Part shown: piece after piece, positions 3,419-44,656 of the stretch
Layout: each line of letters starts with the position of its first letter
Numbering within the stretch: position 1 is the first letter of the stretch
Source: Streptomyces sannanensis
GTDB lineage: Bacteria > Actinomycetota > Actinomycetes > Streptomycetales > Streptomycetaceae
DNA length: 64,000 nt
Direction of reading: 5' to 3'
Assembly: GCF_039536205.1 (NCBI RefSeq)
Contig: NZ_BAAAYL010000001.1
Location: 992,001 to 1,056,000 of the forward strand
Made by a program: the position numbers and the translations under genes
Notes under the pieces: model-generated
The model's database searches: none
What the model was told of the DNA's origin: nothing
What the model saw: only the letters and a program-made list of their open reading frames with translations

Positions 3419-4449
3419 CCCTCCCGCCCGGACAGACCGGCCTCGCGGTGGGCCCGGGCCACCGTCTCCATGACGGCGGTCCGCTGCTCCGGGGTGCCGG
3501 CGTACGGCGAGATGCCCAGGGTGGTGACCCCGGCGGCCGCGTACTCGGTCAGGCGGCGGGAGATCCGGGCCGGCGGGCCGAGCAGCGAGGTGGAGTCGAT
3601 GAACTCCAGGGGCACCGCGTCGGCCGCGCCCTGGAGGTCACCGGCCTGGAAGCGGTCCTGCACCTGCTCGGCCGCCGCCTCGTACCCCATCTGCCGGGCG
3701 AGCCGGAAGTAGAAGTTGCTCTCCCGGTCGCCGAGGCTCATGAACCGGGCGACGTACGGCCGGATCGGCGCGGCGGCCGCCCGGACGTCCTCGCCGACCG
3801 CGGCCGGAGCGGACACGAAGGCGTCGAAGCCGTCGTGGTCCCGGCCGGCCCGATGCCGGCCGGTGCGCACCGCGTCGAGCGCCTGCTTGGCGTGCTCGGG
3901 GCTGCAGAACACGCCCACCCAGCCGTCGGCGATCTCCCCGGCCAGTTCCAGACTGCGGGTGCCGACCGCCGCCAGGTAGACCGGCAGGTCGCTCCTGACG
4001 GGCCCCGGGAGGCGGAAGGCGCCGGCCTCGCTGCCCGGCAGCGGGAGGGCGTAGTGCCGTCCCTCGTACGTCACCGGCTCCTGCGCCAGGGTGCGGCGCA
4101 CGACGTCGACGTACTCGCGGGTCCTGGCGAGCGGCCGGGCGAACGGGGCGCCGTGCCAGCCCTCGGTGACATGGCCGTTGGAGATGCCGAGGCCGAGCCG
4201 GAACCGCCCGCCCGACAGGCCGTCCAGCGTCGCCGCGGCCAGCGCCATGGCGACCGGGGTCCGCGCCGGGATCTGGATGACCGTGGACAGCAGGCCGATC
4301 CGGCTGGTCCGTGCGGCCACCCAGCCGAGCACCGAGATCGCGTCGGAGCGGAAGCCCTCCGGGGCCGCGGCGACGTCGAAGCCGAGCCGCTCGGCCTCCT
4401 GCGCCGTGCGGCCGCAGTCCTCGGGGACGAGGTTGATCCCCAGTCGCAT
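3415..4449 (-). CDS. LLM-class F420-dependent oxidoreductase (second of two)
   Basis: 344-residue luciferase-like monooxygenase/F420 reductase family protein. The core pattern SGGRFRLGLGISNG and the downstream GWVGVF region fit the LLM class. Longer than its paralogue at 1398-2243 and with clearly different sequence, so the two probably act on different substrates. It follows the methyltransferase gene after 7 bases and its stop overlaps the start of the glycosyltransferase gene. F420 use is inferred from family resemblance rather than from a diagnostic residue. Confidence 0.85.
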   Translation of the reverse strand: MRLGINLVPEDCGRTAQEAERLGFDVAAAPEGFRSDAISVLGWVAARTSRIGLLSTVIQIPARTPVAMALAAATLDGLSGGRFRLGLGISNGHVTEGWHGAPFARPLARTREYVDVVRRTLAQEPVTYEGRHYALPLPGSEAGAFRLPGPVRSDLPVYLAAVGTRSLELAGEIADGWVGVFCSPEHAKQALDAVRTGRHRAGRDHDGFDAFVSAPAAVGEDVRAAAAPIRPYVARFMSLGDRESNFYFRLARQMGYEAAAEQVQDRFQAGDLQGAADAVPLEFIDSTSLLGPPARISRRLTEYAAAGVTTLGISPYAGTPEQRTAVMETVARAHREAGLSGREG

Positions 4450-4456
4450 GGCGGGG

Positions 4457-5482
4457 TCACCCTTCCCTGTGGCCGATGACCAGCGAGTCGGTGTTGCTCA
4501 GCACCTTCGCCTCGGTCCGGGCGAAGCCCGCCTCGGTCATCCAGCCGCGGCACTCCTCGACGGAGTACTCGGAGCCGCCGTGGGTGACGAGCAGCATGTC
4601 CAGGCTGATCAGCAGGTTGACCAGGTCGGCCGGCCGCTCGTCGACCATCCGGTCGTACACGAGCAGGGCACCGCCCGGCTCGACGGCCTCGTAAGCCTTG
4701 CGGATCAGGCCGAGGCGCTGCTCGGCGGACCAGTTGTGCAGCACGTGGCCCATGACCAGCACCTGGCCGGACGGCATCGGGTCCTTGAAGAAGTCGCCGC
4801 CGGTGAAGGAGATGCGGTCCTGGGTGCCGAGCCGCTTCATGTGGTCGTCGAAGGCGGGCGCGACGTGCGGCAGGTCGAAGACCCGGGCGGTCAGGTGCGG
4901 GTGCTCGGCGAGGAGCAGCGCGGAGAGGTTGCCGCGGGCGCCGCCGACGTCCACGAAGTCCGTGCGGCCCGCCCAGTCGAAGGCGGCGGCCAGCTTCGGG
5001 GCGACCTGGCTGTTGAGGGAGTCCATCATGGCGAGGAACTGGTCGAGGTGTTCCCGGCTGTCGGCCATCTGCGCGACGATGTCGCCGTCCTTGCCCTTCA
5101 CCTGGGGCTCGCCGGTGCGCAGCGCGTCGGTCAGGTGGGTCCAGGCCGGGTAGAGCATGTTGTTGGCACGCTCGAGGAAGCCGCCGGAGTAGGACGGCTT
5201 ACCGCGGTCCAGGAAGCGGTCGGCGGCAGCGCTGTTGCGGTAGCGGTCGCCGTCCGCCTCCAGTACGCCGAGCGTGACGAGCGCCGTGACGAAGTCGCGG
5301 CCGCCGCGCGGGTGCAGACCGACGGCGTCGGACAGCTCCGCCAGTGTGAGCGGCTTCGCGGCGAGCGTCGAGAAGACGTCCAGCTCCAGTGCGCTGAGCA
5401 GGATCTTGGCGTCGCAGAAGGCGGTACCGAGTCGGATGAGACCCTCGGGGCTGGACACATCCGCAGAAGTGTGAGTCGTCAC
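4457..5482 (-). CDS. SAM-dependent O-methyltransferase
   Basis: 341 residues if begun at the GTG at 5482, which has AGGAAAGGA upstream; longer readings run into the divergent promoter. The N-terminal half is the winged-helix dimerisation domain of small-molecule O-methyltransferases. The C-terminal half has the SAM loop FVDVGGARGN (the GxGxG equivalent), DLPHV and the GHVLHNW catalytic region with the base-like His. It resembles the TcmO/DmpM type that methylates phenols. First gene of the minus-strand tailoring operon, preceded by a candidate SARP box. It is the only small-molecule methyltransferase in the window. Confidence 0.92.
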   Translation of the reverse strand: MTTHTSADVSSPEGLIRLGTAFCDAKILLSALELDVFSTLAAKPLTLAELSDAVGLHPRGGRDFVTALVTLGVLEADGDRYRNSAAADRFLDRGKPSYSGGFLERANNMLYPAWTHLTDALRTGEPQVKGKDGDIVAQMADSREHLDQFLAMMDSLNSQVAPKLAAAFDWAGRTDFVDVGGARGNLSALLLAEHPHLTARVFDLPHVAPAFDDHMKRLGTQDRISFTGGDFFKDPMPSGQVLVMGHVLHNWSAEQRLGLIRKAYEAVEPGGALLVYDRMVDERPADLVNLLISLDMLLVTHGGSEYSVEECRGWMTEAGFARTEAKVLSNTDSLVIGHREG

Positions 5483-6899: not shown

Positions 6900-8096
6900 G
6901 TGACACGTCGTCTGTTCACCTCGGAGTCGGTCACCGAGGGTCACCCCGACAAGATCGCCGACCGGATCAGCGACACGATCCTGGACGCGCTGCTCGCCCA
7001 GGACCCCCACTCCCGGGTCGCCGTGGAGACCCTGATCACCACGGGTCAGGTGCACGTCGCCGGCGAGGTCACCACGGCGGCGTACGCCGACATCGCGACG
7101 CTGGTCCGCGAGACCGTGCTGCGGATCGGCTACGACTCCTCCGCGAAGGGCTTCGACGGCGCCTCCTGCGGCGTCTCGGTGTCCATCGGGGCGCAGTCCC
7201 CGGACATCGCCCAGGGCGTCGACACCGCCTACGAGGCCCGGCAGGGCGACGAGGTGGACGACCTGGACCGGCAGGGCGCCGGCGACCAGGGCCTGATGTT
7301 CGGCTACGCCTGCGACGACACGCCGGAGCTGATGCCGCTGCCGATCTCCCTCGCGCACCGGCTCTCCCGCCGCCTCGCCGAGGTCCGGCACGACGGCACG
7401 CTGCCGTACCTCCGTCCGGACGGCAAGACGCAGGTCACCATCGAGTACGACGGCGACCGGCCGGTACGGCTCAACACCGTCGTGGTGTCCTCGCAGCACG
7501 CCGCCGACATCGACCTGGACTCGCTGCTGGCCCCCGACATCCGCGAACTCGTGGTGGAGCCGGTCCTCCAGGGGCTGCCGATCGACACAGAGGGCTACCG
7601 GCTGCTCGTCAACCCGACCGGGCGCTTCGAGGTCGGCGGCCCGATGGGCGATGCCGGTCTCACCGGCCGAAAGATCATCGTCGACACGTACGGCGGCATG
7701 GCCCGCCACGGTGGCGGCGCCTTCTCCGGCAAGGACCCGTCGAAGGTGGACCGCTCGGCGGCGTACGCGATGCGCTGGGTCGCCAAGAACGTCGTCGCCG
7801 CCGGGCTCGCCAAGCGCTGCGAGGTGCAGGTCGCGTACGCGATCGGCAAGGCCGAGCCGGTCGGTCTCTTCGTCGAGACCTTCGGCACCGAGACCGCCCC
7901 GCTGGAGCGGATCCAGCACGCGGTCCTCCAGGTCTTCGACCTGCGGCCGGCGGCCATCATCCGCGACCTCGACCTGCTGCGACCGGTCTACGCCGAGACC
8001 GCCGCCTACGGCCACTTCGGCCGCGAGCTGCCGAAGTTCACCTGGGAGCGCACCGACCGCGCCCAGAAGCTGGCCGCCGCGGCGCGCGCCGTCTGA
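6900..8096 (+). CDS. metK: S-adenosylmethionine synthetase
   Basis: 398 residues, full length for MetK. The N-terminus has [12 protein letters not shown], the middle has [12 protein letters not shown] and the C-terminal third has [19 protein letters not shown], the methionine/ATP and metal-binding motifs. It makes SAM from methionine and ATP. GTG start; CCAAGGAG upstream. Its place inside a polyketide cluster, next to the other enzymes of the methyl cycle, marks it as a pathway-dedicated copy; a housekeeping metK is expected elsewhere in the genome. Confidence 0.98.
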
Positions 8097-25045: not shown

Positions 25046-25882
25046 TCAGTTGGCCCGCGCGAGCAGCGGGCTCGCGGCGGCGGCCGCGGGGTCCAGTTCG
25101 AGCTGCGGCGAGGAGTCGAGCACCGCCCGGTGCAGCTGCTCGACGCTGGGCGAGGGGTCGAGCCCGAGGCTCTGGTTCAGACAGCGGCGCAGCTGCCGGT
25201 ACACGGTCAGCGCGTCACTGCGGCGCCCGACCCGGTACAGCGCGAGCATCAGCTGCTCGTGCACCGCCTCGTGCATCGGATGGCGGGCGGCGAGCCCGGA
25301 CAGCTCACCGACGAGCTCATGATGGCGGCCCAGCCTCAGGTCTGCCTCGATCCGGCGCTGAAGGACGCTCATCCGCGACTCGTCCAGCCGGGTGGCCTCC
25401 ACCTCGAGCAGCGGCCCGCACTGGACGTCGGAGAGCGCACGGCCGTGCCACAGCGACAGCGCCCCGCCGAAGTACGAGGAGGCCGCCGGCCAGTCACCCT
25501 GGTTCAGCGCCCGGTGCCCGGCCGAGGACAGCTCGTCGAACTCGTGGGCGTCGAGCAGCCCGCCGTGGGTGTCGAGCCGGTAACCGCCGGGCTCGGTGAC
25601 GAGGACGCTCTTGGCGCCGTTCGGCAGGCTGTCGCCCTCGGCGCCCTCACGCAGGGCGGCCGCGATGGCGTTGCGGATCTGCAGGATGTACGTCTGCAGG
25701 GTGGTCTGGACGCTGCGCGGCGGGTGCTCGCCCCAGACCTCCTCCACCAGCGCAGCCACCGACACGGCCTCGCCCGCCTCCAGGGCGAGCAGCGCGAAGA
25801 CCTTGCGCGGTTTGACGGCGGTGAGGTGCACGGGCACTCCGGACAAGGTGGCCCGGAACGGGCCGAGCACGCTGATGTCCAT
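25046..25882 (-). CDS. SARP-family transcriptional activator 1
   Basis: 278 residues: OmpR-type winged-helix DNA-binding domain (about 1-95, with KPRKVFALLAL and SVQTTLQTYILQIRN) followed by the bacterial transcriptional activation domain (about 100-250). No ATPase or TPR extension, so it is of the short ActII-ORF4/RedD type. Such proteins bind 11-base-spaced heptamers and recruit polymerase; boxes of that form precede most units in this cluster. It lies in an operon with the thioesterase upstream and ACP downstream. Confidence 0.95.
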   Translation of the reverse strand: MDISVLGPFRATLSGVPVHLTAVKPRKVFALLALEAGEAVSVAALVEEVWGEHPPRSVQTTLQTYILQIRNAIAAALREGAEGDSLPNGAKSVLVTEPGGYRLDTHGGLLDAHEFDELSSAGHRALNQGDWPAASSYFGGALSLWHGRALSDVQCGPLLEVEATRLDESRMSVLQRRIEADLRLGRHHELVGELSGLAARHPMHEAVHEQLMLALYRVGRRSDALTVYRQLRRCLNQSLGLDPSPSVEQLHRAVLDSSPQLELDPAAAAASPLLARAN

Positions 25883-30787: not shown

Positions 30788-30855
30788 GACTGTCGCGGGT
30801 GGAACAGGCGCCGAGGTCGGGGGCGTACGCGCCCGTACGACACGCAGGGGGCCGA

Positions 30856-32592
30856 ATGAGCGACTACCGCACCTTCACCGAACTGATGACCGAGAGAGCC
30901 GAGCGGGCGCCCGAGCGCACCGCCCTGCTCCTGCTGCCGGACAGCGACGCACACGGTCGCCCCGCCTCGGTCACGTACCGCACGCTCGACGCCCGGGCCC
31001 GTCGGCTCGCCGCCCGGCTGTGCGCCGACGGCGCCGCCGGGGAGCCGGTGCTGCTGCTGCACGCGTCCCGGAGCCAGTTCGCGGTGTCCTTCCTGGCGTG
31101 TCTGTACGCCGGTGCGGTCGCCGTCCCGATTCCGCCGTACGACGGCCGCAGCCACCACGAGGAGCGGGTGGCCGGGATCGTCCGGCAGACCTCCCCGCGG
31201 GTCGCGCTCACCTGCGCGACGCTCGCCCCGGACGTCTCCCGGCTGCTCGCCCGGCACGGCCACGGCTCGATCCCGTGCCTCGCCGCCGACGCGGTGGCCG
31301 GGCCGGAGACCGAGCGGCTGCCCGAGGTCGGCCCGGACACGGTGGCCTATCTCCAGTTCTCCTCCGGTTCCACCGGCAGTCCGAACGGCGTGGTGGTCAC
31401 CCACCGCAACCTGCTCGCCAACCAGCGGGCGCTGCACGGACTGCTCGGCGCGGGCCCGGAGTCCCGGATCGGCGGCTGGCTGCCGTTGCACCACGACATG
31501 GGCCTGGTCGGCCAGCTGCTTCACCCCTTATGGCTGGGCGCCACCTCCGTCCTGGTGTCGCCGCAGTCCTTCGTCCGCCGGCCGGTGCGCTGGCTGGAGG
31601 CGATCGGGCGGTACGGCATCGAGGCGAGCGGCGCCCCGGACTTCGCGTACGACCTGTGCGTGCGGCGGGTCACCGACGAGGAGCTGGCCGGGCTCGATCT
31701 GTCCGGCTGGCGCGTCGCGATCTCCGGCGGGGAGCCGGTGCGCGCCGAGACGCGGAGGGCGTTCACCGAGCGGTTCGGGCGCGCGGGCCTGCCCGCGGGG
31801 GCGATGCACGCGGCGTACGGCCTGGCCGAGGCGACCCTGCTGGTCTCCGGCGGGCGGGCGGTGGACGGTGAGTGGGCGGTCGATGCCGAGGCCCTTCAGG
31901 AGGGCCGGCTGAGCGAGCCGCGGCCCGGGCGGGCGGCGCACACCCTGGTGTCGTGCGGCACGGTCGACGCGGCCGCCGGCCGGGTGCTGATCGTGGACCC
32001 GGAGACGCACGAGGTCCGGCCGGACGGACAGGTCGGCGAGATATGGGTGAACGGACCCGGCGTCGCCCCGGGCTACTGGCGCGACCGCTCGACGACCGCG
32101 GAGCGCTTCGGCGCCGTGACGGTCGACGGGACCGGCGGGATGCTGCGCACCGGCGACCTCGGCACGGTGGCGGACGGCCGGCTCTACGTCACCGGTCGAC
32201 TGAAGGACGTGATCATGGTCGCTGGCCGCAACCTTTATCCGCAGGACGTGGAGCGCAGTGTGCAGCGGGTCAGCTCGCTGTTCGGCACGGGATCCGCCTT
32301 CTCGGTGCCCGGGGAACGCGAACGGGTCGTCGTCGTCCAGGAGTTGCGGACCCACCAGCGGTACGCCCTCGACCTGGAGGGTCTGGTGACGGACGTCCGG
32401 CGGTGCCTGAGCAAGGAGTTCGAGGTGGCGGTGGCAGGGGTGCTGCTCGTGCGCCCCGGCACCGTCCGGCGCACCAGCAGCGGAAAGGTCGAGCGGGTCG
32501 CGATGCGCCGGCTGTTCCTGAACGGCGGGCTGCGACCGCTGCACCAGTATCTGGCCGACGACCTGGCCGGAACGGCGGGCCCGCGCCGTTAG
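30856..32592 (+). CDS. Fatty-acyl-AMP ligase (FAAL)
   Basis: 578 residues of the adenylating superfamily. P-loop-like SSGSTGSPNGVVVTH, the AAYGLAEAT motif, RTGDLG and the C-terminal KDVIMVAGRNLYPQDVE and SSGKVER lysine are present. The arrangement (LPLHHDMGL, no CoA-site motif) is that of FAALs, which load carboxylic acids onto a carrier protein. Codon 225 (31528-31530) is a TTA, which requires the bldA tRNA. The next gene encodes an ACP domain, its likely acceptor. Confidence 0.93.
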   Translation: MSDYRTFTELMTERAERAPERTALLLLPDSDAHGRPASVTYRTLDARARRLAARLCADGAAGEPVLLLHASRSQFAVSFLACLYAGAVAVPIPPYDGRSHHEERVAGIVRQTSPRVALTCATLAPDVSRLLARHGHGSIPCLAADAVAGPETERLPEVGPDTVAYLQFSSGSTGSPNGVVVTHRNLLANQRALHGLLGAGPESRIGGWLPLHHDMGLVGQLLHPLWLGATSVLVSPQSFVRRPVRWLEAIGRYGIEASGAPDFAYDLCVRRVTDEELAGLDLSGWRVAISGGEPVRAETRRAFTERFGRAGLPAGAMHAAYGLAEATLLVSGGRAVDGEWAVDAEALQEGRLSEPRPGRAAHTLVSCGTVDAAAGRVLIVDPETHEVRPDGQVGEIWVNGPGVAPGYWRDRSTTAERFGAVTVDGTGGMLRTGDLGTVADGRLYVTGRLKDVIMVAGRNLYPQDVERSVQRVSSLFGTGSAFSVPGERERVVVVQELRTHQRYALDLEGLVTDVRRCLSKEFEVAVAGVLLVRPGTVRRTSSGKVERVAMRRLFLNGGLRPLHQYLADDLAGTAGPRR

Positions 32593-32650
32593 CGGCGGGC
32601 GACCCGCCCGGCGGACCGCCGGCGGGAAAGAACACAGACAGGGGGAAGAT

Positions 32651-33886
32651 GTGAGCGGAACGGCACCCGGCGACCCGGACGAGAGGCTCTTCGCCGCCTG
32701 GCTCTCCGAACGGATCGCCCGTTACGCGCGGCGCGCGGTCGGCGACGACGAGGACCTGTCCCTCTGGGGACTCGACTCGGTGGCCCTGCTCAGCCTGGTG
32801 GGGGACATCGAGGTCGAGTTCGAGCAGATTTTCGAAGCCGCGGACATCTGGGCCCATCCGACCATTCGCGACCTGGCCCACCACCTGGCGATGCGCCAGG
32901 GCATGCGCCGGCACTCCGGCCGGGTCAGGGCGGCGTTCGTCTTCACCGGACAGGGCAGCCAGCACCCCCGGATGACGGCCGGGCTGCACCGCGAGCTCGC
33001 CGCCTACCGGCGCCATCTCGCCGCGGCCGACGAGGCGATCGCCCCGTACCTGGGCCGCTCGGTCACCGAGCTGATCCTCGACGGGGATCCCCGGGTGCAC
33101 CGGACGGCGCTGACCCAGCCGGCGCTCTTCGCCGTCGGGTACGCCCTGGCGATGACGCTGGTCGAGGAGGAGGGGGTGCGTCCGGTGGCCGTGCTCGGTC
33201 ACGGCATCGGCGAGCTCGCGGCGGCCGTGGTCGCCGGGGCGCTGACCCTCCCCGACGCGGCCCGGCTGGTGTGCTGTCGCGGCGCCTTCATGCAGCACCT
33301 GCCGTCCGGCGGCGGGATGATGGCGACCTGCGCCAGCCCGTACGAGGCGGCCGACGCGGCGGCGGGAGAACCGCAGGTGAGCATCGGCGCGGTCAACGCG
33401 GCACGCGCCACGGTGCTGTCCGGCCCGGTCGCGGGCCTGGAGCGGGTCCGCGAGCGACTGGCCGCGGTCGGCATCGCCAGCACCTTCCTGGAGGTGACGC
33501 ACGCCTTCCAGTCGCCGCTGATGGAGCCGGTGACGCCCCGGTTCGAGGCCGCGGCCCGGCATGTGGCGGGCGGGCCGCCGACGCTGCCCTACTACTCGAC
33601 GGTGTACGGCCGCGAGTACGCCGATCCGCTGACCACGGCGTACTGGACGGCGCAGATCACCGCACCGGTACGGTTCACCGACGCCGCCCGCCGGATGCTC
33701 ACCCGGCAGGCCCCCAGCCATGTCGTGGAGATCGGCCCCAAGGCGGTGCTCACGCCCTTCCTGCGGCGGATCGCCGGGGCCCGGGGACCGGACTGTCTCG
33801 CGGTGTGCCGCAGCCCGGGGAGCGACGCGGTGTACCTGGCGGGCGTGCTGTCGAGGCTGGACGCGGGGCCCCTGACGGAGAACTGA
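32651..33886 (+). CDS. ACP fused to a catalytically impaired acyltransferase domain
   Basis: 411 residues. Residues 10-85 form an ACP with Ser43 in WGLDSVALL. Residues 94-400 form a FabD/AT-like domain with FTGQGSQ, QPALF and the conserved fold, but the nucleophile loop reads GHGIGE (Gly185 for Ser) and the HAFH motif reads HAFQ (Gln287 for the catalytic His). Both catalytic residues are lost, so it should not transfer malonyl groups; it may serve as a scaffold or docking domain. GTG start after AGGGGGAAG, 58 bases beyond the FAAL gene. Confidence 0.9.
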   Translation: MSGTAPGDPDERLFAAWLSERIARYARRAVGDDEDLSLWGLDSVALLSLVGDIEVEFEQIFEAADIWAHPTIRDLAHHLAMRQGMRRHSGRVRAAFVFTGQGSQHPRMTAGLHRELAAYRRHLAAADEAIAPYLGRSVTELILDGDPRVHRTALTQPALFAVGYALAMTLVEEEGVRPVAVLGHGIGELAAAVVAGALTLPDAARLVCCRGAFMQHLPSGGGMMATCASPYEAADAAAGEPQVSIGAVNAARATVLSGPVAGLERVRERLAAVGIASTFLEVTHAFQSPLMEPVTPRFEAAARHVAGGPPTLPYYSTVYGREYADPLTTAYWTAQITAPVRFTDAARRMLTRQAPSHVVEIGPKAVLTPFLRRIAGARGPDCLAVCRSPGSDAVYLAGVLSRLDAGPLTEN

Positions 33887-33948: not shown

Positions 33949-34563
33949 CTACGGGATCCAGCCGGCCTCCTCGGCGATGCGGATCGCGTCGATCCGGTTG
34001 CGCGCCTGGAGCTTGTCCACGATGGCCGTGAGGTAGTTCCGTACCGTGCCCTGGGTCAGATAGAGGTGGTCGGCGATCTCCACGGCGTCGGCGCCCCGCG
34101 CCGCGAGCCGTAGCACCTGGGTCTCCCGGGGCGACAGCGGGTTGTCCGGCGCCTCCCAGGCGCTCAGCGCGAGTTCGGGGTCGATCACCCGCTGACCGGC
34201 GGCGACCGAGCGCACCGCCTGGGCCAGCCGGTTCGGCGGGGAGTCCTTGAGCAGAAAGCCGGACACCCGCGCGGCCATCGCCCGCCGCAGCGTCCCCGGC
34301 CTGCCCAGGCTGGTGAGGATGAGGGTGCGGCACTCCGGCACCCGCCGGTGCAACTCGGCCGCCGCGGTGAGGCCGTCGACGCCGGGCAGGTCGATGTCGA
34401 TGACCGCGACGTCCGGACGGGCCTCGAGCGCGCTCGGCACGATCAGGTCACCGCGCGCGACCGAGGCGACGACCTGAAGATCCTGCTCCAGTTCCAGCAG
34501 CGCGATCAGCGCGCCGCGGACCATGTGTACGTCCTCGGCCAGAAGGATCTTGATCAGCAGCAT
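33949..34563 (-). CDS. NarL/LuxR-type response regulator (DesR-like)
   Basis: 204 residues. Receiver domain 1-120 with acidic pair AEDVHM, phosphorylatable Asp56 in VAVIDIDLPG and Lys in FLLKD; C-terminal LuxR helix-turn-helix PLSPRETQVLRLAARG to VRNYLTAIVDKL. Partner of the kinase encoded 29 bases upstream. It lies last in the unit that begins with the RiPP precursor candidate, so it may control that unit. Confidence 0.95.
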   Translation of the reverse strand: MLLIKILLAEDVHMVRGALIALLELEQDLQVVASVARGDLIVPSALEARPDVAVIDIDLPGVDGLTAAAELHRRVPECRTLILTSLGRPGTLRRAMAARVSGFLLKDSPPNRLAQAVRSVAAGQRVIDPELALSAWEAPDNPLSPRETQVLRLAARGADAVEIADHLYLTQGTVRNYLTAIVDKLQARNRIDAIRIAEEAGWIP

Positions 34564-34592
34564 GGGCTCCCCCCGATGTGTCCAGTGTGCTC

Positions 34593-35867
34593 TCAGACCA
34601 CGTGTCTGCCCGCTTCTCCGAGCCGGCCCGCCGCGTCGTCGGCCGCCCGGTGTCTGTGCGACGGCAGCGGCTCGGCGTCCTCGCCCTTCGGGGGCCTGAG
34701 CGGAGCCGTCGCCGCCAGCCGGAACCGGTTCCCGGCGATCACCCCCGCCGTCATCTCGCCGCCGATCGCGGAGAGCCGGGCCCGCAGATTTCCGAGACCG
34801 CTGCCGCGGTCCGGGGCGTCCGACCGGTCCGGCGCGACGACACCGTCGTTGACCAGCACCAGCCGCACCAACTCCCCCTCGACCCGCACCGTGACGGTGC
34901 ACGACTGCACCTTGCTGTGCCTGAGCATATTCGTGACGCCCTCGCGCAGGGCGGTCGCGAGCACGGTGTCCACCAACGGGTGGAGCCTGCCGCAGTCGAT
35001 GTCCACCTCCGTCTCGACGTCGGCCGCCGCCATGACCTCGGCCACCGACTCGGCCTCCGCCGCCAGCGACATGTCCCGGTAGCCGCTGGCCACCAGCCGG
35101 ACGTCGGCCAGTGCCTGCCGGGCGACGCCGAGCACCGAGGCGACCTCCTCGCGGGCCCGCTCGGGGTTGACCAAGACCAGACGGTGGATCAGCTCGCACT
35201 TGAGCGTGATCGCGGAGAGGCTGTAGCCGAGCAGGTCGTGCAGGTCCCGGGCGAAGCGCAGCCGCTCCCGGGTGACCGCCATCCTGGCCATCTCGGCGCG
35301 GGTGTCGTGGACTTCGCGCACCAGATCGGTGAGCCGGGTGAGGCCGTAGATGACCAGTCCGGTCAGCGCGGTGGAGACGGCGTAGTAGCCCGTCTCGAGC
35401 GCCGACACCCCCCCGCCGACGGACCAGCCGAGCATGGCCAGCGGGACCGCGCCGTAACAGGGCCAGGCGATCCGGCCGGGGAGCATGAGGAGAATCGATC
35501 CGGCGAGCGGCCCCGCCATGCTTCCCCACGCGACCCCCAGCCACACCATGGGCCCGAAGGTGAGCAGCGCCTGCGCAACGAGGATGGCCGCCCGGCGCCG
35601 ACCGGACCACCGGCGCGCCCGGGGCGAGGTGAGCAGCATCTGCACCGCGTAGAGCATGACCACGACGCCCGTGCACAACACCAGGCCGAGCGTGCCGGAG
35701 ACCACGTTCTCCACGTTGAGCAGGGTGACGACGCCGTATCCCGCGAAGACCACCGTGCTGATCCCCTGGGCGAGCCGCGGTGCCAGCAGATCCCTGGCCG
35801 GGGCTCCCCCCGCTGGGCCCTTGACGCCGATGAGGTCGTTGTCCGAAACCCGGAAACGGCCCGCCAT
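34593..35867 (-). CDS. DesK-like sensor histidine kinase
   Basis: 424 residues from the ATG at 35867, which has GAGGAG seven bases upstream; a longer reading from 35924 is less likely. N-terminal membrane part with about six segments (35-180), HisKA_3 helix with phosphorylation site His210 in RFARDLHDLLGYSL, and HATPase with the G-box GSGLGNLRARL. A short internal linker and no extracytoplasmic domain suggest membrane-state or small-ligand sensing. The C-terminal ~35 residues are a polar Pro/His/Arg-rich tail. Confidence 0.93.
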   Translation of the reverse strand: MAGRFRVSDNDLIGVKGPAGGAPARDLLAPRLAQGISTVVFAGYGVVTLLNVENVVSGTLGLVLCTGVVVMLYAVQMLLTSPRARRWSGRRRAAILVAQALLTFGPMVWLGVAWGSMAGPLAGSILLMLPGRIAWPCYGAVPLAMLGWSVGGGVSALETGYYAVSTALTGLVIYGLTRLTDLVREVHDTRAEMARMAVTRERLRFARDLHDLLGYSLSAITLKCELIHRLVLVNPERAREEVASVLGVARQALADVRLVASGYRDMSLAAEAESVAEVMAAADVETEVDIDCGRLHPLVDTVLATALREGVTNMLRHSKVQSCTVTVRVEGELVRLVLVNDGVVAPDRSDAPDRGSGLGNLRARLSAIGGEMTAGVIAGNRFRLAATAPLRPPKGEDAEPLPSHRHRAADDAAGRLGEAGRHVV

Positions 35868-35961
35868 GTGTGGACTCCTCGCGTGGGTGTCGGGAGTGTG
35901 CAGGACCGAACTATAAGCCGACACCCACCGTGTCCGGGACCCTACGGCGCCTCAACCATGA

Positions 35962-38211
35962 CTACAGCACGAGAGGTACAGGATTCAGCTCCTCGTAGGG
36001 TGTTGACCGGCCAAGTTGGCCGAGACGGACCGGTACGTCGTACAGCCTGCCGGGCGCGAACCTGGCGTAGAAGTGCCGCAGTCCGGGGACCAGGATCTTG
36101 ACGACCGGAATCCCGACGTCCGGGCGGGTCTGGTCGAGAACCAGCAGCTCGAGGCCGTGCGCCGCGACAAGTTCGCGGATGCCCTCGACGTCGGCGAGGA
36201 GGTCGTCGTGGCGGACGTACGGCCGAAAGGAGCCGGGAGTGAGCGCCGACTGCCCGGGATCGGGCAGGAGTTGGTATTGATCGGGAGGCAAGGGTGCCGT
36301 ACCGGCGGCCGCCGGGGGCAGCGTCTGCACCATTTCGGTCATCGCCCGGCGCAGCGCTAGGCGGGGATCGAAGTGGGCGCCGAAGCCGAGGACGACGTCC
36401 GGGACTTCGGCGTCCGTACGCCGGGAGACCGCCACGACGACGGGAATGCCGAGATCCGAGGTGAGGTCCAGGGCCCAGACGCGACGGCCCGTCCGGCCGA
36501 GCGCCTCGCGCAGGCCGGCCAGCCACGGCTCGTCGAAGGCGTCCAGGTCGATGCCCGGCTGCCGGAGCCGGTTGTACCACCACAGGGACACCGCGTCCCG
36601 CTCGACGAGCTCCAGGAAACCCTGCACCACGGCGTCCTCCGGGCTGCTGCCGGCCGCGTTGCCGTTGGAGTCGGCCCACAGCCCGTCCGGGGAACCGCCG
36701 GACGCACAGCCGAAGTACAGCGTGGAGGTGGGCAGCAACCGCTGGACGCCGGCGGTGAGCGACCACACCGGGGTCCACTCGGTGGGCCGGTGCGGGTCGA
36801 AGGGCGCGCTCACGTGGTGGAAGGGGGTGTGTGAGGCGTTCCAGCGGTCCCGGTCGGCGAACTGCCGCTCGTGGAACAGCTGGTACGTGTTGGGGTGGAC
36901 GGCCGCGTCGCCGAGGCCGACCAGCGAGTCCGTGACGGTCAGCTCGTCGCCCTGCTGTGCGGCGCAGTAACGTTCCACCGCCTCGCACAGCGCACTGGCC
37001 CGGGCCTCGGCCGCCGTCGTCCCCTTGCCCGCACTGCGCGCCCGCAGCACCCGGTGCATCGCGGTCGGGGAGTGCCCGCGCAGGGCGAGGTTGTGGCCGG
37101 AGTCATAGGCGTGCAGGCCTTCGGGCAGCCCGGCCATGGGGCGGACCTCCGTCACGACACCGGTGACCGGCCCGATCAGATGCCCGTACCTCCGCAGCAT
37201 CTGCTCGGCGGACAACGCCCGGTCGTTGCTGCCCGAGCCCTCGGCCTTGGGCCGCGAGACCGGCACCACCGGCCGCCGGGTCCGCTCGGCCACCAACGAG
37301 GGATCCCCGCAGGACGGACACTGCGGGCGGCGCCGCACCGGGTGGTGGGTGGTGCGCAGGGTGAGGCCGTCCATGACGCACACGGCCCGCTGCTCCGAAC
37401 CCCGCAGCCCCGCAAGCCACTTGGCCGTCTCCAGGACCGCACTGTGCAGCCCCACGGCGCGCACGGCGGCCAGCGAGGGCACCGGCCGGACCGCGGGCCG
37501 GTCCAGGCCGAGGGCCTGCTGGACCGACAGCTCGCCGCGGCGGTGCTCACGCAGCCGGTGCGCCAGGCACGACCAGCACGCACCGTCGCCGCCCGGCTCG
37601 AAGACCGGGCCGGTCCACGGCTCGGCCGCGAAGGGTCTGGCCAGCAGCCACGGGCGTCTCGCCGCCCGTAACCTGGCTTCTGTGTCCCGCAGTTCGGGCA
37701 TCAGATAGTCCTCGCACAGGACGAGCGCGAAGTCGGCGTCGGCGTCCTCGCCGACCGGGGTGACCCCCGAGGCGCGGCACGCGGCCCGGGCCGCCTCGCC
37801 GTCCACGTCCCCGACGCAGATCACCGCCACCGGCCTGCGGCACACCTCGCCGTCGGCCACGGCGCCGTCCAGTCCGGCGCGGTCCCAGTACGCCTCCGCG
37901 GAGCACCGCTCGGCCGAGCCGGACGGCCTCGGCGCGCCATGGCGGTACCCCACCAGATTGGCCTCGGTCAGGCGCCGCACCACCCGCCCCGCCGTCCCGG
38001 CGGGCATCGACGAGGCGGCCTCCCGGAGCAGCTCGGGCAAGGTGCGGCTGCCGTCGAGCAGATCCAGCAGGGTCTCCACGCCGGCACCCCGCACGGCGGT
38101 CACGTCCTGGTCGGAGCACACGAACACGGCCTCTCCCGGGACCGACACGGCCCGCACATGGCGCTTGAACGCCACGAACGGGCCGCGGGCCGGGCGCTGC
38201 CCCTCGGTCAC
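35962..38211 (-). CDS. Fused TOMM leader-binding E1-like / YcaO cyclodehydratase
   Basis: 749 residues from GTG at 38211. Residues 1-310 are the ocin-ThiF-like partner that binds the precursor leader, with a zinc Cys tetrad at CWSC (212-215) and CPSC (298-301). Residues about 320-749 are the YcaO ATPase with EARASALCEAVERY and FLELVERDAVSLWWYNR. It should convert Cys/Ser/Thr of a peptide into azolines. The C-terminus ends NPVPLVL, a cut-down form of the usual PxPxP tail. Codon 181 (37671-37669) is TTA. The start overlaps the precursor stop (GTGA). No SagB-type dehydrogenase is nearby. Confidence 0.93.
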   Translation of the reverse strand: MTEGQRPARGPFVAFKRHVRAVSVPGEAVFVCSDQDVTAVRGAGVETLLDLLDGSRTLPELLREAASSMPAGTAGRVVRRLTEANLVGYRHGAPRPSGSAERCSAEAYWDRAGLDGAVADGEVCRRPVAVICVGDVDGEAARAACRASGVTPVGEDADADFALVLCEDYLMPELRDTEARLRAARRPWLLARPFAAEPWTGPVFEPGGDGACWSCLAHRLREHRRGELSVQQALGLDRPAVRPVPSLAAVRAVGLHSAVLETAKWLAGLRGSEQRAVCVMDGLTLRTTHHPVRRRPQCPSCGDPSLVAERTRRPVVPVSRPKAEGSGSNDRALSAEQMLRRYGHLIGPVTGVVTEVRPMAGLPEGLHAYDSGHNLALRGHSPTAMHRVLRARSAGKGTTAAEARASALCEAVERYCAAQQGDELTVTDSLVGLGDAAVHPNTYQLFHERQFADRDRWNASHTPFHHVSAPFDPHRPTEWTPVWSLTAGVQRLLPTSTLYFGCASGGSPDGLWADSNGNAAGSSPEDAVVQGFLELVERDAVSLWWYNRLRQPGIDLDAFDEPWLAGLREALGRTGRRVWALDLTSDLGIPVVVAVSRRTDAEVPDVVLGFGAHFDPRLALRRAMTEMVQTLPPAAAGTAPLPPDQYQLLPDPGQSALTPGSFRPYVRHDDLLADVEGIRELVAAHGLELLVLDQTRPDVGIPVVKILVPGLRHFYARFAPGRLYDVPVRLGQLGRSTPYEELNPVPLVL

Positions 38212-38387
38212 GCACCCACCTGGGTGTCGAGCACGGAGGCGATGCACATGCACCAGTTCGCCGACCCGCCCTCGGCCCGGCTCAGACTCTCGACCAGGAT
38301 CTCCCCGAGCGCCCCGTCCGCCGGCCCGGCCTCCGCGGACCAGGGCTCCGACTCCGAGAGGCGAAGGATGTCTTCGGTGATGTTCAC
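38208..38387 (-). CDS. Candidate RiPP (TOMM) precursor peptide
   Basis: 59 residues, GTG at 38387 with GGGGG six bases before it, stop overlapping the YcaO start by four bases. The first 40 residues are an acidic helix-prone leader (NITEDILRLSESEPWSAE, then EILVESLSRAEG). The last 19, GSANWCMCIASVLDTQVGA, hold two Cys, two Ser and one Thr that a cyclodehydratase could modify. The CxC pair is the likeliest site. Not recognised as a known precursor family. Size, composition and translational coupling to the cyclodehydratase are the evidence; cleavage site and product are inference. Confidence 0.75.
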   Translation of the reverse strand: MNITEDILRLSESEPWSAEAGPADGALGEILVESLSRAEGGSANWCMCIASVLDTQVGA

Positions 38388-38691
38388 ACGTACCCCCAGT
38401 GAATGAGCGAGACTGGCGAGCGGGACGAGGCACGGAGAAGACGCACCGCGGCGCCCGCCTCACAACCGTCCGAGCCGAACCGGATCAGGCCTCGGCGTCT
38501 GATTCGAGAGTCTGCTGTCGAAAATCGAACTACGGCAGTGCGAAGCTCATCGGAGGGACATGACATTTTCACGAACGGGGTCATGCGCCCCTCACTGGGC
38601 CCGGACCGGCCCCCGATGCGAGTCTCATGAGCCGGACTCCGAACGGGCCGTCACGGGGACGGACGGCCGTGGCCCAAGGGGGAGAATGCTG
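38388..38691. promoter_or_regulatory. Divergent intergenic region between the RiPP unit and SARP 2
   Basis: 304 bases without a convincing gene. Around 38500-38530 several TCGA cores cluster (TCGAGAG, TCGAAAA, TCGAACT), but their spacings are 14 and 7, not the SARP 11. Must contain promoters for both directions; no clear -35/-10 pair stands out. Confidence 0.5.
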
Positions 38692-39486
38692 ATGGAGATC
38701 CAGATCCTGGGGTCGCTCGCCGCACAGGAGCGCGGCGTCTCCGTGGTGCCGAGCGCCGCCAAGCCCCGCCAGCTGCTGGCCCTGCTCGCGCTGCACGCCG
38801 ACCGGGTGGTGTCGGTGCCGACGCTGATGGAGGAGATCTGGGGCGAGTGCATCCCCCGCAGCGCCTCCACCACGCTGCAGACGTACATCCTCCAGCTGCG
38901 TCGCCGGCTCACCGTGGCCCTCGACGGCGACCCGCTGCGCGACGCCAAGGACATCCTCGTCACTCGGTTCGGCGGCTATCTGTTCCAGGTGGAGCCCGGC
39001 CGGGTCGACGCCCACGAGTTCGAGCGGCTCGCCGCGGCCGGCGGCACCGCCTTCGAGCTCGGCGACCACCGCGCCGCCTCCGACCTGCTGCGCCGCGCCC
39101 TCGCCCTGTGGCAGGGCCCCGCCCTGGTCGACGTGCCGACCGGGACGGTCCTCGAACTGGAGGTGCTGCGGCTGAACGAGGAGCGGACGACCGCGCTCGA
39201 GCGTCGCATCGAGGCGGACCTGAGACTCGGCCGGCACGCCGAGGTGGTGCCCGAACTGCGCGTCCTGGCCGCCCGCAACCCGCTCCACGAGGGCTTCTGC
39301 GCCCAGCTGATGCGCGCCCTGCACCGCACGGGCGGCAGCTGGCGCGCCCTGGAGGCCTACCAGCGACTGCGCGACTCACTGGTCCACGAACTGGGCCTGG
39401 AGCCCTCCGCCGCACTCCAGGACCTCCACCACGCGGTCCTGTCCGGCGACGTGGACCTGGCCCTGCACCCGGCGACGGCGGACTGA
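38692..39486 (+). CDS. SARP-family transcriptional activator 2
   Basis: 264 residues, winged-helix domain (KPRQLLALLAL, SASTTLQTYILQLRR) plus activation domain, same short architecture as SARP 1 and about half identical by eye. ATG at 38692 is chosen over 38686 because AAGGGGGAG is then at proper distance. Two SARPs may form a cascade or divide the cluster between them; the box sequences do not separate into two obvious classes. Confidence 0.94.
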   Translation: MEIQILGSLAAQERGVSVVPSAAKPRQLLALLALHADRVVSVPTLMEEIWGECIPRSASTTLQTYILQLRRRLTVALDGDPLRDAKDILVTRFGGYLFQVEPGRVDAHEFERLAAAGGTAFELGDHRAASDLLRRALALWQGPALVDVPTGTVLELEVLRLNEERTTALERRIEADLRLGRHAEVVPELRVLAARNPLHEGFCAQLMRALHRTGGSWRALEAYQRLRDSLVHELGLEPSAALQDLHHAVLSGDVDLALHPATAD

Positions 39487-42262: not shown

Positions 42263-42541
42263 TTTGAGCCGCGTAAGCACGAAAGCCCGTGAAAGGCGTT
42301 GAAAGAAGCATCCCTGCAGGTCAGCGCCACGCGACCGCAGAGAACCCGAAGTCAAGGGCCTGACCACGAGGCCTACATGACATACGTACCGAGATCGTCG
42401 GCCTCGACGATACCCGGAAGCGAACCGCCCTCACGCAAGGGCGTGACATAGCGGGTCGCTGTGACTTCGGAGAGCATTGAGCCAGATTACGTCGGGGGCC
42501 GGCCGGTGCTCGATCGGATATCCGTCCGCCTATGCTGCCCC

Positions 42542-44656
42542 ATGACCGATCTCATCGAAGTACCCGAATTTCCGGGCCAGTTCGCCAGGACCCGTCGTTT
42601 CGCGCTGGGCATCCCCGGCCGGTTCACGGTCTCCCCGGACGGTGACCGTGTGCTGTTCACACGGAGCACGCACGGCGCCGATCCGGTGAGCCGGCTGTGG
42701 CTGTACGAGGACGGCGAGGAGCGGATACTCGTCGATCCGCCCGCCCTCGGCGGTGAGGAGGAGGTGCCGGAGGAGGAGCGGATCCGCCGTGAGCGCGCCC
42801 GTGAGTCCTCCTCCGGTGTGGTGGCGTACGCGACCGACCGCGAGGCGCGGCTCGTGGCCTTCACGCTGGGGGGCGCGCTCTGGCTGGTGCGGACGGACGG
42901 GGGCGCCCCCTGGCCGGTGCCCACGGCCGGTCCCGTGGTCGATCCGCGTCCCTCCCCCGACGGCACGCTGGTCGCGTACGTCACCGGGGGCACGCTCCGG
43001 GTCGTACGCACCGACGGCACGGAGGACAGGCTGCTGGCCGCACCGGAGGGGCCCGGCGTGACATACGGGCTGTCCGACCACGTATCGGCCGAATCGATGG
43101 GGCGGCTGCGCGGCCACTGGTGGTCGCCGGACGGGGATGCCCTGCTGGTCGCGCGCGTGGACACCTCCGCGGTCCAGCGCTGGTACCTGGCCGACCCCGC
43201 GCATCCGGAGCGGGCCCCGCGCGCCATCCCGTATCCGGCCGCGGGCACCGCCAACGCCGAGGTGTCGCTGCACATCGTGCCGCTGCAGGGGGACCGCGTG
43301 CCGGTCCGGCTCCCGGCAGCCGCGGACGAGCACCCTGCCGGCGGCGAGTGGACCGACCCGTCCTTCGAGTACGTCCCGACGGCCTGCTGGGACGCGTACG
43401 GTCCGCTCGTCTCCGTACAGACCCGCGACCAGCGCTCGGTATACGTCCTGTCCGTCGACCCGGTGACCGGGGAGACCGAGCGCCGGCACCATGCCACCGA
43501 CCACGCGTGGGTGGAGCTCGTGCCCGGCACCCCGGTGCGCATGCCGTCCGGCGGGCCGGTCCTTCCCTGGATCAGGGAGGGCGACCGCGGCCTGCGTCTG
43601 GGGGATGCGGTCACCCCGCGGGGGCTCCAGGTGGAGTCGGTCCTGGGCACGGCGGGCGAGCGGCTGTTCTTCACCGCCGCCGAGGAGCCGACAGAGATCC
43701 ACGTCTGGTCGTACGACCCCGAGGACGGCTGCGTCCGGATCAGCGACCGGCCGGGCGTCCACACGGCCGCGGCGGGCGGCAACACCGTGGTGCTGGACAG
43801 CAGGACCCCCGACGGGCACACGGTGACGGTGCTGCGCGACGGGAAGCCGGCCGGCCGGATAGCGGTGCTCGCCGAGGAGCCGGTCGTCACGCCCCGGCCG
43901 GTGCTGCTCTCGCTGGGCGAACGGAAGTTGCGCAGCCGGCTGTTCCTGCCGTCCTGGCACGAACCGGGGGCCCGGAAGCTACCGGTGCTGCTCAGCCCGT
44001 ATTCCGGGCCCGGCCTGCAGCTCGTGGTGCAGGCCCGCACCTGGCACGCGGCGGTGTGCCAGTGGTTCGCCGAACAGGGCTTCGCGGTGCTGGTCACGGA
44101 CGGGCGCGGCACGCCGGGGCGGGACCATGCCTGGGAGAAGTCCGTCCACGGCGACCAGTTGACCCCGGTGCTGGAGGACCAGGTGGACGCCCTGCACGCC
44201 GCCGCCGAGCGGTACCCGGAGCTGGACCTGGAGCGGGTCGCGGTGCGCGGCTGGTCGTTCGGCGGGTTCCTGGCCGCGGGGGCCGTGCTGCACCGCCCGG
44301 ATGTCTTCCATGCGGCCGTCGCCGGGGCCGCTCCCACCGATCTGCGGCTCTACGACACGCACTGGAAGGAGCGCTATCTCGGCCACCCGGACGTCCAGCC
44401 GGAGAACTACGAACGTTGCTCCCTGGTGGCGCACGCCCATCGGCTGACCCGGCCTCTGCTCCTGGTGCACGGTCTCGCCGACGACAATGTGGTGGCAGCA
44501 CACATGCTGCGGTTCTCCTCGGCGCTTCTGGCCGCCGGGCGGCCGCACCAGGTGCTTCCGCTGCCCAGCGCCACCCATATGGCCATGGGGAAGGGTGTGG
44601 CGGACGGATTGCTCCGGATGGAGCTGGACTTCCTGAAGAAGTCGCTGCGTCGTTGA
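42542..44656 (+). CDS. S9-family prolyl oligopeptidase / dipeptidyl peptidase
   Basis: 704 residues: N-terminal beta-propeller (about 1-470, with WSPDGDALLVARVD) and C-terminal alpha/beta hydrolase. Nucleophile Ser in VRGWSFGGFLAAG, Asp in VHGLADDNV and His in SATHMAM complete the triad. Resembles dipeptidyl peptidase IV. No signal peptide, so cytoplasmic. No ribosome site, but TATGCT at 42531-42536 ends five bases before the ATG, so the mRNA is probably leaderless. First gene of the ordinary chromosome. Confidence 0.93.
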   Translation: MTDLIEVPEFPGQFARTRRFALGIPGRFTVSPDGDRVLFTRSTHGADPVSRLWLYEDGEERILVDPPALGGEEEVPEEERIRRERARESSSGVVAYATDREARLVAFTLGGALWLVRTDGGAPWPVPTAGPVVDPRPSPDGTLVAYVTGGTLRVVRTDGTEDRLLAAPEGPGVTYGLSDHVSAESMGRLRGHWWSPDGDALLVARVDTSAVQRWYLADPAHPERAPRAIPYPAAGTANAEVSLHIVPLQGDRVPVRLPAAADEHPAGGEWTDPSFEYVPTACWDAYGPLVSVQTRDQRSVYVLSVDPVTGETERRHHATDHAWVELVPGTPVRMPSGGPVLPWIREGDRGLRLGDAVTPRGLQVESVLGTAGERLFFTAAEEPTEIHVWSYDPEDGCVRISDRPGVHTAAAGGNTVVLDSRTPDGHTVTVLRDGKPAGRIAVLAEEPVVTPRPVLLSLGERKLRSRLFLPSWHEPGARKLPVLLSPYSGPGLQLVVQARTWHAAVCQWFAEQGFAVLVTDGRGTPGRDHAWEKSVHGDQLTPVLEDQVDALHAAAERYPELDLERVAVRGWSFGGFLAAGAVLHRPDVFHAAVAGAAPTDLRLYDTHWKERYLGHPDVQPENYERCSLVAHAHRLTRPLLLVHGLADDNVVAAHMLRFSSALLAAGRPHQVLPLPSATHMAMGKGVADGLLRMELDFLKKSLRR

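Follow-up and report, generated by a model that had tools for sequence, protein, structure and literature searches.

A 59-residue peptide, a fused YcaO cyclodehydratase, a DesK-type histidine kinase and a LuxR-type response regulator, encoded in the window (the whole 64,000-nucleotide stretch of Streptomyces sannanensis DNA analysed here), are parts of one conserved cassette. The cassette probably makes an azoline-peptide autoinducer, which would be sensed by the kinase, with feedback to its own gene and to a SARP gene. We favour this reading because a modifying enzyme, a variable core, a co-varying sensor and a conserved regulator are accompanied by a putative operator on the cassette's own promoter. 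The four genes had been recognised in a previous sequence-only reading, and their frames and families were confirmed here. What this analysis adds to that reading is the DNA element, the assignment of the divergent SARP to the unit, a leader motif, the set of relatives and the covariation of peptide and sensor.

Conservation and gene order of the cassette

The genes of the cassette and its context are located in the window as follows.

38208..38387, minus strand: precursor peptide gene, 59 aa, with a leader without the Nif11/nitrile-hydratase-like segment found in most relatives
35962..38211, minus strand: fused leader-binding/E1-like/YcaO cyclodehydratase, 749 aa, with full-length LynD, TruD and MusD matches
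34593..35867, minus strand: DesK-type (HisKA_3) histidine kinase with a multi-helix membrane sensor at about residues 28-155
33949..34563, minus strand: LuxR-type response regulator, downstream of the kinase
38686..39486, plus strand: divergent SARP (BTAD) activator, within 1.5 kb of YcaO in many loci
30799..33886, plus strand: FAAL and ACP-acyltransferase of the polyketide cluster, as context genes

At a threshold of E 1e-60, 116 of the 392 genomes searched within the genus contain a YcaO relative. When named genomes were scanned, 448 relatives were confirmed and the best 80 retained; these and the window make up the 81 loci used below. Among the best 80 of 448, kinase and regulator homologues were each found in 76 loci (four loci are without a kinase match and four without a regulator match). 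The order YcaO, kinase, regulator is adjacent on a single strand in 62 of these 80 loci, and it is contiguous in all 37 that carry FAAL and acyltransferase genes. Two loci (L070 and L086) have the precursor, YcaO and DNA element, with kinase and regulator homologues absent within 22 kb. In L103 (13888-16242) and L105 (6427-8823), two HisKA_3 stretches lie in each kinase frame, as if tandem kinases had been fused.

A FastTree analysis placed the window, the 37 FAAL loci and L041 in one 39-row clade (99), and all others in a second clade. Neighbouring genes vary within the second clade and include a modular PKS (L099), an NDP-hexose dehydratase (L105), an AMP-ligase with MFS and MMPL proteins (L096) and a flavin halogenase-like protein (L093). 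Judged by length, nine of the 81 loci, all in this clade, carry a full SagB and 20 carry its N-terminal part only. The short proteins (about 210-260 aa; L061:14359-14994 and 19 other loci) resemble the SagB N-terminus without the dehydrogenase part and lie beside the cassette; a SagB_family model matched two full SagB proteins and neither of two short ones.

The precursor peptide and its leader motif

Within the precursor gene, two segments were located.

38280..38300, minus strand: leader motif ILVESLS, with a family form of mostly LVIEDLD/S, found at 77 of 81 loci
38244..38255, minus strand: core W45-C46-M47-C48, with WCxC in all four database homologues

The start of YcaO shares four bases with the end of the 59-residue frame. 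As in TOMM systems, a precursor with a leader and a Cys/Ser/Thr core thus adjoins the YcaO gene. Four database homologues of the window peptide are of equal length and 69-95% identical to it, all four with WCxC, and dN/dS values of 0.50 and 0.74 against two relatives show the frame to be fast-evolving.

Candidate precursors beside similar YcaO genes, for which the sequence-only reading had suggested a search, were found at nearly all loci: a precursor with the common leader motif precedes YcaO in 77 of 81 (the window and the best 80 of 448 relatives; seven of the 77 were recognised by eye). These frames end near the YcaO start and contain LVIEDLD/S or a near variant of it; after it comes a short core of variable sequence, which is repeated in tandem in L056, L063, L084, L058 and L059. 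ILVESLS is proposed, from its sequence, as a docking motif for the leader-binding domain of YcaO. Most FAAL-clade precursors possess a segment like FAELAARTGLEPELAQRY..DPVAVLAEFGL upstream of this motif. It gives a weak match to TIGR04351 and is lost from the window peptide.

That no known precursor of this kind could be recognised, as had been stated before, applies to the window peptide, which matched neither TIGR04351 nor any other family at E 0.01. It does not extend to the longer-leader relatives, which do match TIGR04351 ('putative TOMM peptide'), with scores under the cut-off (44 bits at best, against 65 bits).

The fused YcaO enzyme and its predicted chemistry

A YcaO cyclodehydratase with an E1-like partner is present, again as in TOMM systems. 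A profile built from 17 relatives matches LynD from end to end with an E value of 1.5e-217, and TruD and MusD likewise; this full-length homology bears out the earlier assignment to a RiPP unit with a cyclodehydratase. The window YcaO is therefore a LynD/TruD-type heterocyclase of the kind found with cyanobactins. No PatA/PatG protease was found among the window proteins compared with Pfam, and no macrocyclase was noticed with the window YcaO. Acidic motifs that resemble an ATP site, and four Cys in two CxxC pairs, are invariant in 17 of 17 YcaO relatives.

The optional TOMM dehydrogenase SagB gave no TIGR03605 match in the organism's own genome. Azolines, rather than azoles, are therefore the likely end state, in agreement with what had been predicted, and Cys46 and Cys48 are predicted from the sequence to become thiazolines.

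A conserved DNA element between the precursor and SARP genes

Three elements were located upstream of the precursor gene.

38538..38571, minus strand: conserved tandem-dyad element TGAN5TCAY-N9-RTGAN6CAC, lying between the precursor gene and the divergent SARP gene
38584..38595, minus strand: third half-site GTGAN5GCA, 22-24 bases further upstream of the element, on the SARP side
38509..38514, minus strand: hexamer CAGACT, a proposed -10 of the precursor operon

The 34-base element upstream of precursors was found by expectation-maximisation with the window sequence as seed, and it has exact matches in 73 and relaxed matches in 77 of the 81 upstream regions (window and best 80 of 448). A scan of the 392 genomes gave 102 exact matches in 91 genomes, and the reversed-pattern control gave 4 matches in 3 genomes; because some species are shared by these genomes and the 81 source regions, the scan tests the motif's specificity without being independent evidence for the motif itself. 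Seventy-six of the 102 matches lie upstream of a YcaO relative at a distance of up to 1.5 kb, 75 of them on the YcaO strand, and 26 lie elsewhere. Counted by genome, 76 have both element and YcaO, 40 YcaO alone, 15 the element alone and 261 neither. The organism's own genome contains one exact match. Allowing one mismatch returned the same site on both strands, with one match per strand for the backward control.

We propose, from the sequence, that the tandem-dyad element is a response-regulator box. It occurs without a SARP gene within 1.5 kb in 26 loci (window and best 80 of 448). Moreover, when 15 of the 26 matches far from YcaO were looked at, three loci (L113-L115) were found to keep kinase, regulator and SARP together with the element, with YcaO and a recognised precursor absent; the genomes of these loci gave no YcaO match at E 1e-60. 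These SARP-less and YcaO-less loci indicate that the element follows the regulator better than it follows SARP or YcaO. L113, with its kinase at 3829-2732, regulator at 2686-2075, SARP at 4439-5221 and FAAL at 243-1997, is possibly a receiver-only locus, and L114 and L115 resemble it with SagB in addition. Two cassette loci have the element twice: in L116 and L119 a further copy lies before SagB or between SARP and a SagB-like gene, which suggests a small regulon.

Of the 38 loci in the FAAL/PKS clade that bear the box, 33 have the third half-site, as do 2 of the 35 others. All 38 clade loci, and 19 of the 35 others, have a [CT]ANANT sequence 57-59 bases downstream of the box start, and we infer that CAGACT is the promoter -10 of the precursor operon.

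The location of the putative operator also bears on whether the modified peptide is instead a bioactive end product, such as an antibiotic, that its producer also senses (as nisin is sensed by its producer through NisK/NisR), SARP only coordinating it with the polyketide. Variable cores, tandem core repeats and full SagB in nine of 81 loci look like a product-making past. However, most loci have SagB reduced or absent, no cassette-tied exporter or immunity gene was noticed among the top 60 gene clusters, and the operator is located on a regulator gene; we regard an end product as unlikely.

Covariation of the peptide core with the kinase sensor

In the predicted structure of the kinase (mean pLDDT 80.5), five to six helices precede the kinase part, and the nearest relative of the catalytic part is DesK. 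Among seven domains compared, the sensor has the lowest mean identity (0.44, with 0.60 for the kinase domain and 0.74 for the regulator).

Core distances were compared with all seven domains in the 73 of 81 loci that have all parts. The kinase sensor gave the best correlation (r 0.713), and its partial correlation given the kinase domain and YcaO was 0.469 (permutation p 0.002); that of the kinase domain given the sensor was -0.085. With each domain conditioned on the six others, the sensor gave 0.378, the YcaO D domain 0.242 and the kinase domain 0.121 in the FAAL clade (38 loci), and outside that clade (35 loci) the sensor gave 0.329 and YcaO-C 0.181. The faster-evolving cluster protein ABM served as a control in 35 loci (mean identity 0.44, r 0.467): the sensor given ABM reached 0.696 and ABM given the sensor 0.044, while FAAL given the sensor kept 0.269. 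Core distances therefore track the membrane sensor beyond the kinase domain, YcaO and ABM, with relatedness only partly removed and contact not proven.

Were the kinase to sense another cue, such as a lipid or the polyketide, and merely control the RiPP operon, this correlation would be residual relatedness. The nearest solved relative of the kinase, DesK, is a membrane-fluidity sensor, and the sensory genes of L113-L115 persist with SARP where YcaO and a recognised precursor are missing, both of which fit such a cue. The sensor nevertheless outperforms every other tested domain and the faster-evolving control, and we think another cue improbable.

The polyketide context

In 46 of the 80 loci (best 80 of 448), and in all 37 FAAL loci among them, a divergent SARP gene lies no more than 1.5 kb from YcaO. 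A second SARP in the window (25046-25882) is 51% identical to that of the cassette. Elsewhere in the window, an S9 prolyl oligopeptidase-like protein (42461-44656) has no relative in the best 80 of 448 loci, and a frame near the cluster edge (6900-8096) that looks by eye like an S-adenosylmethionine synthetase is followed by a sugar-kinase-like frame.

The sequence-only reading had left open whether the peptide is joined to the polyketide, for example by the FAAL, or is an independent signal. Goadvionin-like lipopeptide hybrids exist as a precedent for joining, and the cassette stands beside FAAL, acyltransferase and SARP genes in 37 of 37 clade loci. Against a hybrid, 43 of 80 loci (best 80 of 448) have the cassette without FAAL, and FAAL-bearing L113 keeps the kinase, regulator, SARP and element with neither YcaO nor precursor found; the genes beside FAAL (ACP, acyltransferase and acyl-CoA dehydrogenase) fit starter-unit loading. 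A hybrid thus appears very improbable. Signalling is favoured by the tandem-dyad element, the core-sensor tracking and the occurrence of the cassette away from the FAAL cluster.

A proposed signalling circuit

In the autoinducer circuit, the ILVESLS leader of a new precursor would be held by the fused YcaO, which would convert Cys46 and Cys48 to thiazolines. The core would then exit the cell, trimmed by non-dedicated factors, and be sensed by the DesK-type kinase through its multi-helix membrane domain. The kinase would phosphorylate the LuxR-type regulator, which would bind the tandem dyads between precursor and SARP and raise both SARP and, by positive feedback, the signal operon; SARP would in turn switch on the polyketide genes. 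In the FAAL clade, the position of the operator between precursor and SARP would provide a way to control the polyketide genes. The genes and their order, the homology of the enzyme, the element with its placement and the statistical link of core and sensor are observed, whereas the peptide's modification, export and sensing, the DNA binding and the activation are steps that we infer. Counting against the circuit, the cassette has no exporter or leader protease tied to it, L070 and L086 are without sensory genes, and the statistics reduce relatedness but keep some of it.

Comparison with known systems

The cyanobactin heterocyclases LynD, TruD and MusD have the same full-length leader-binding, E1-like and YcaO parts; here, by contrast, the enzyme is actinobacterial, its short precursor carries an LVIEDLD-type motif, and a kinase and regulator are attached. 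Likeness to the nitrile-hydratase-like leader of TIGR04351 is confined to the longer-leader relatives, below cut-off, whereas the window peptide is without that leader segment.

In the comQXPA operon of Bacillus, a precursor, the ComQ prenyltransferase, a HisKA_3 kinase and a LuxR regulator are encoded together. The logic is alike, with a HisKA_3 kinase and LuxR regulator downstream of the precursor and modifying enzyme, but YcaO stands here in place of ComQ, the hosts are actinobacteria and the proposed target is SARP. Nisin and subtilin are autoinducing lantibiotics with a dedicated exporter and protease. Like the peptide proposed here, each is a RiPP to which its own two-component system responds, but the enzyme class differs and no such exporter or protease is tied to this cassette.

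Goadsporin, a Streptomyces azole peptide, promotes secondary metabolism at low concentration (PMC4603692). It differs in having azoles, a B protein and a dehydratase, and the passage of that source on goadsporin describes no kinase-regulator unit. The words polyketide, PKS, histidine kinase and signal are likewise absent from the main text of this TOMM survey, and a search of the open-access literature found no account of a peptide-YcaO-kinase-regulator cassette.

Implications

We hold it an evenly balanced prospect that these loci form a YcaO-made actinobacterial pheromone family, with lineage-private azoline 'languages', matching sensors and one operator; in one clade the family would be wired through SARP to a FAAL/type II polyketide cluster, and in other loci it has different biosynthetic genes as neighbours. 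If so, a heterocyclised peptide of ribosomal origin would serve Streptomyces as a signal alongside its gamma-butyrolactone signalling systems, and a predictable short peptide could switch on silent polyketide clusters in many strains. Such a signal would be common, since 116 of the 392 genomes have YcaO relatives. For genome mining, the operator pattern is a ready handle.
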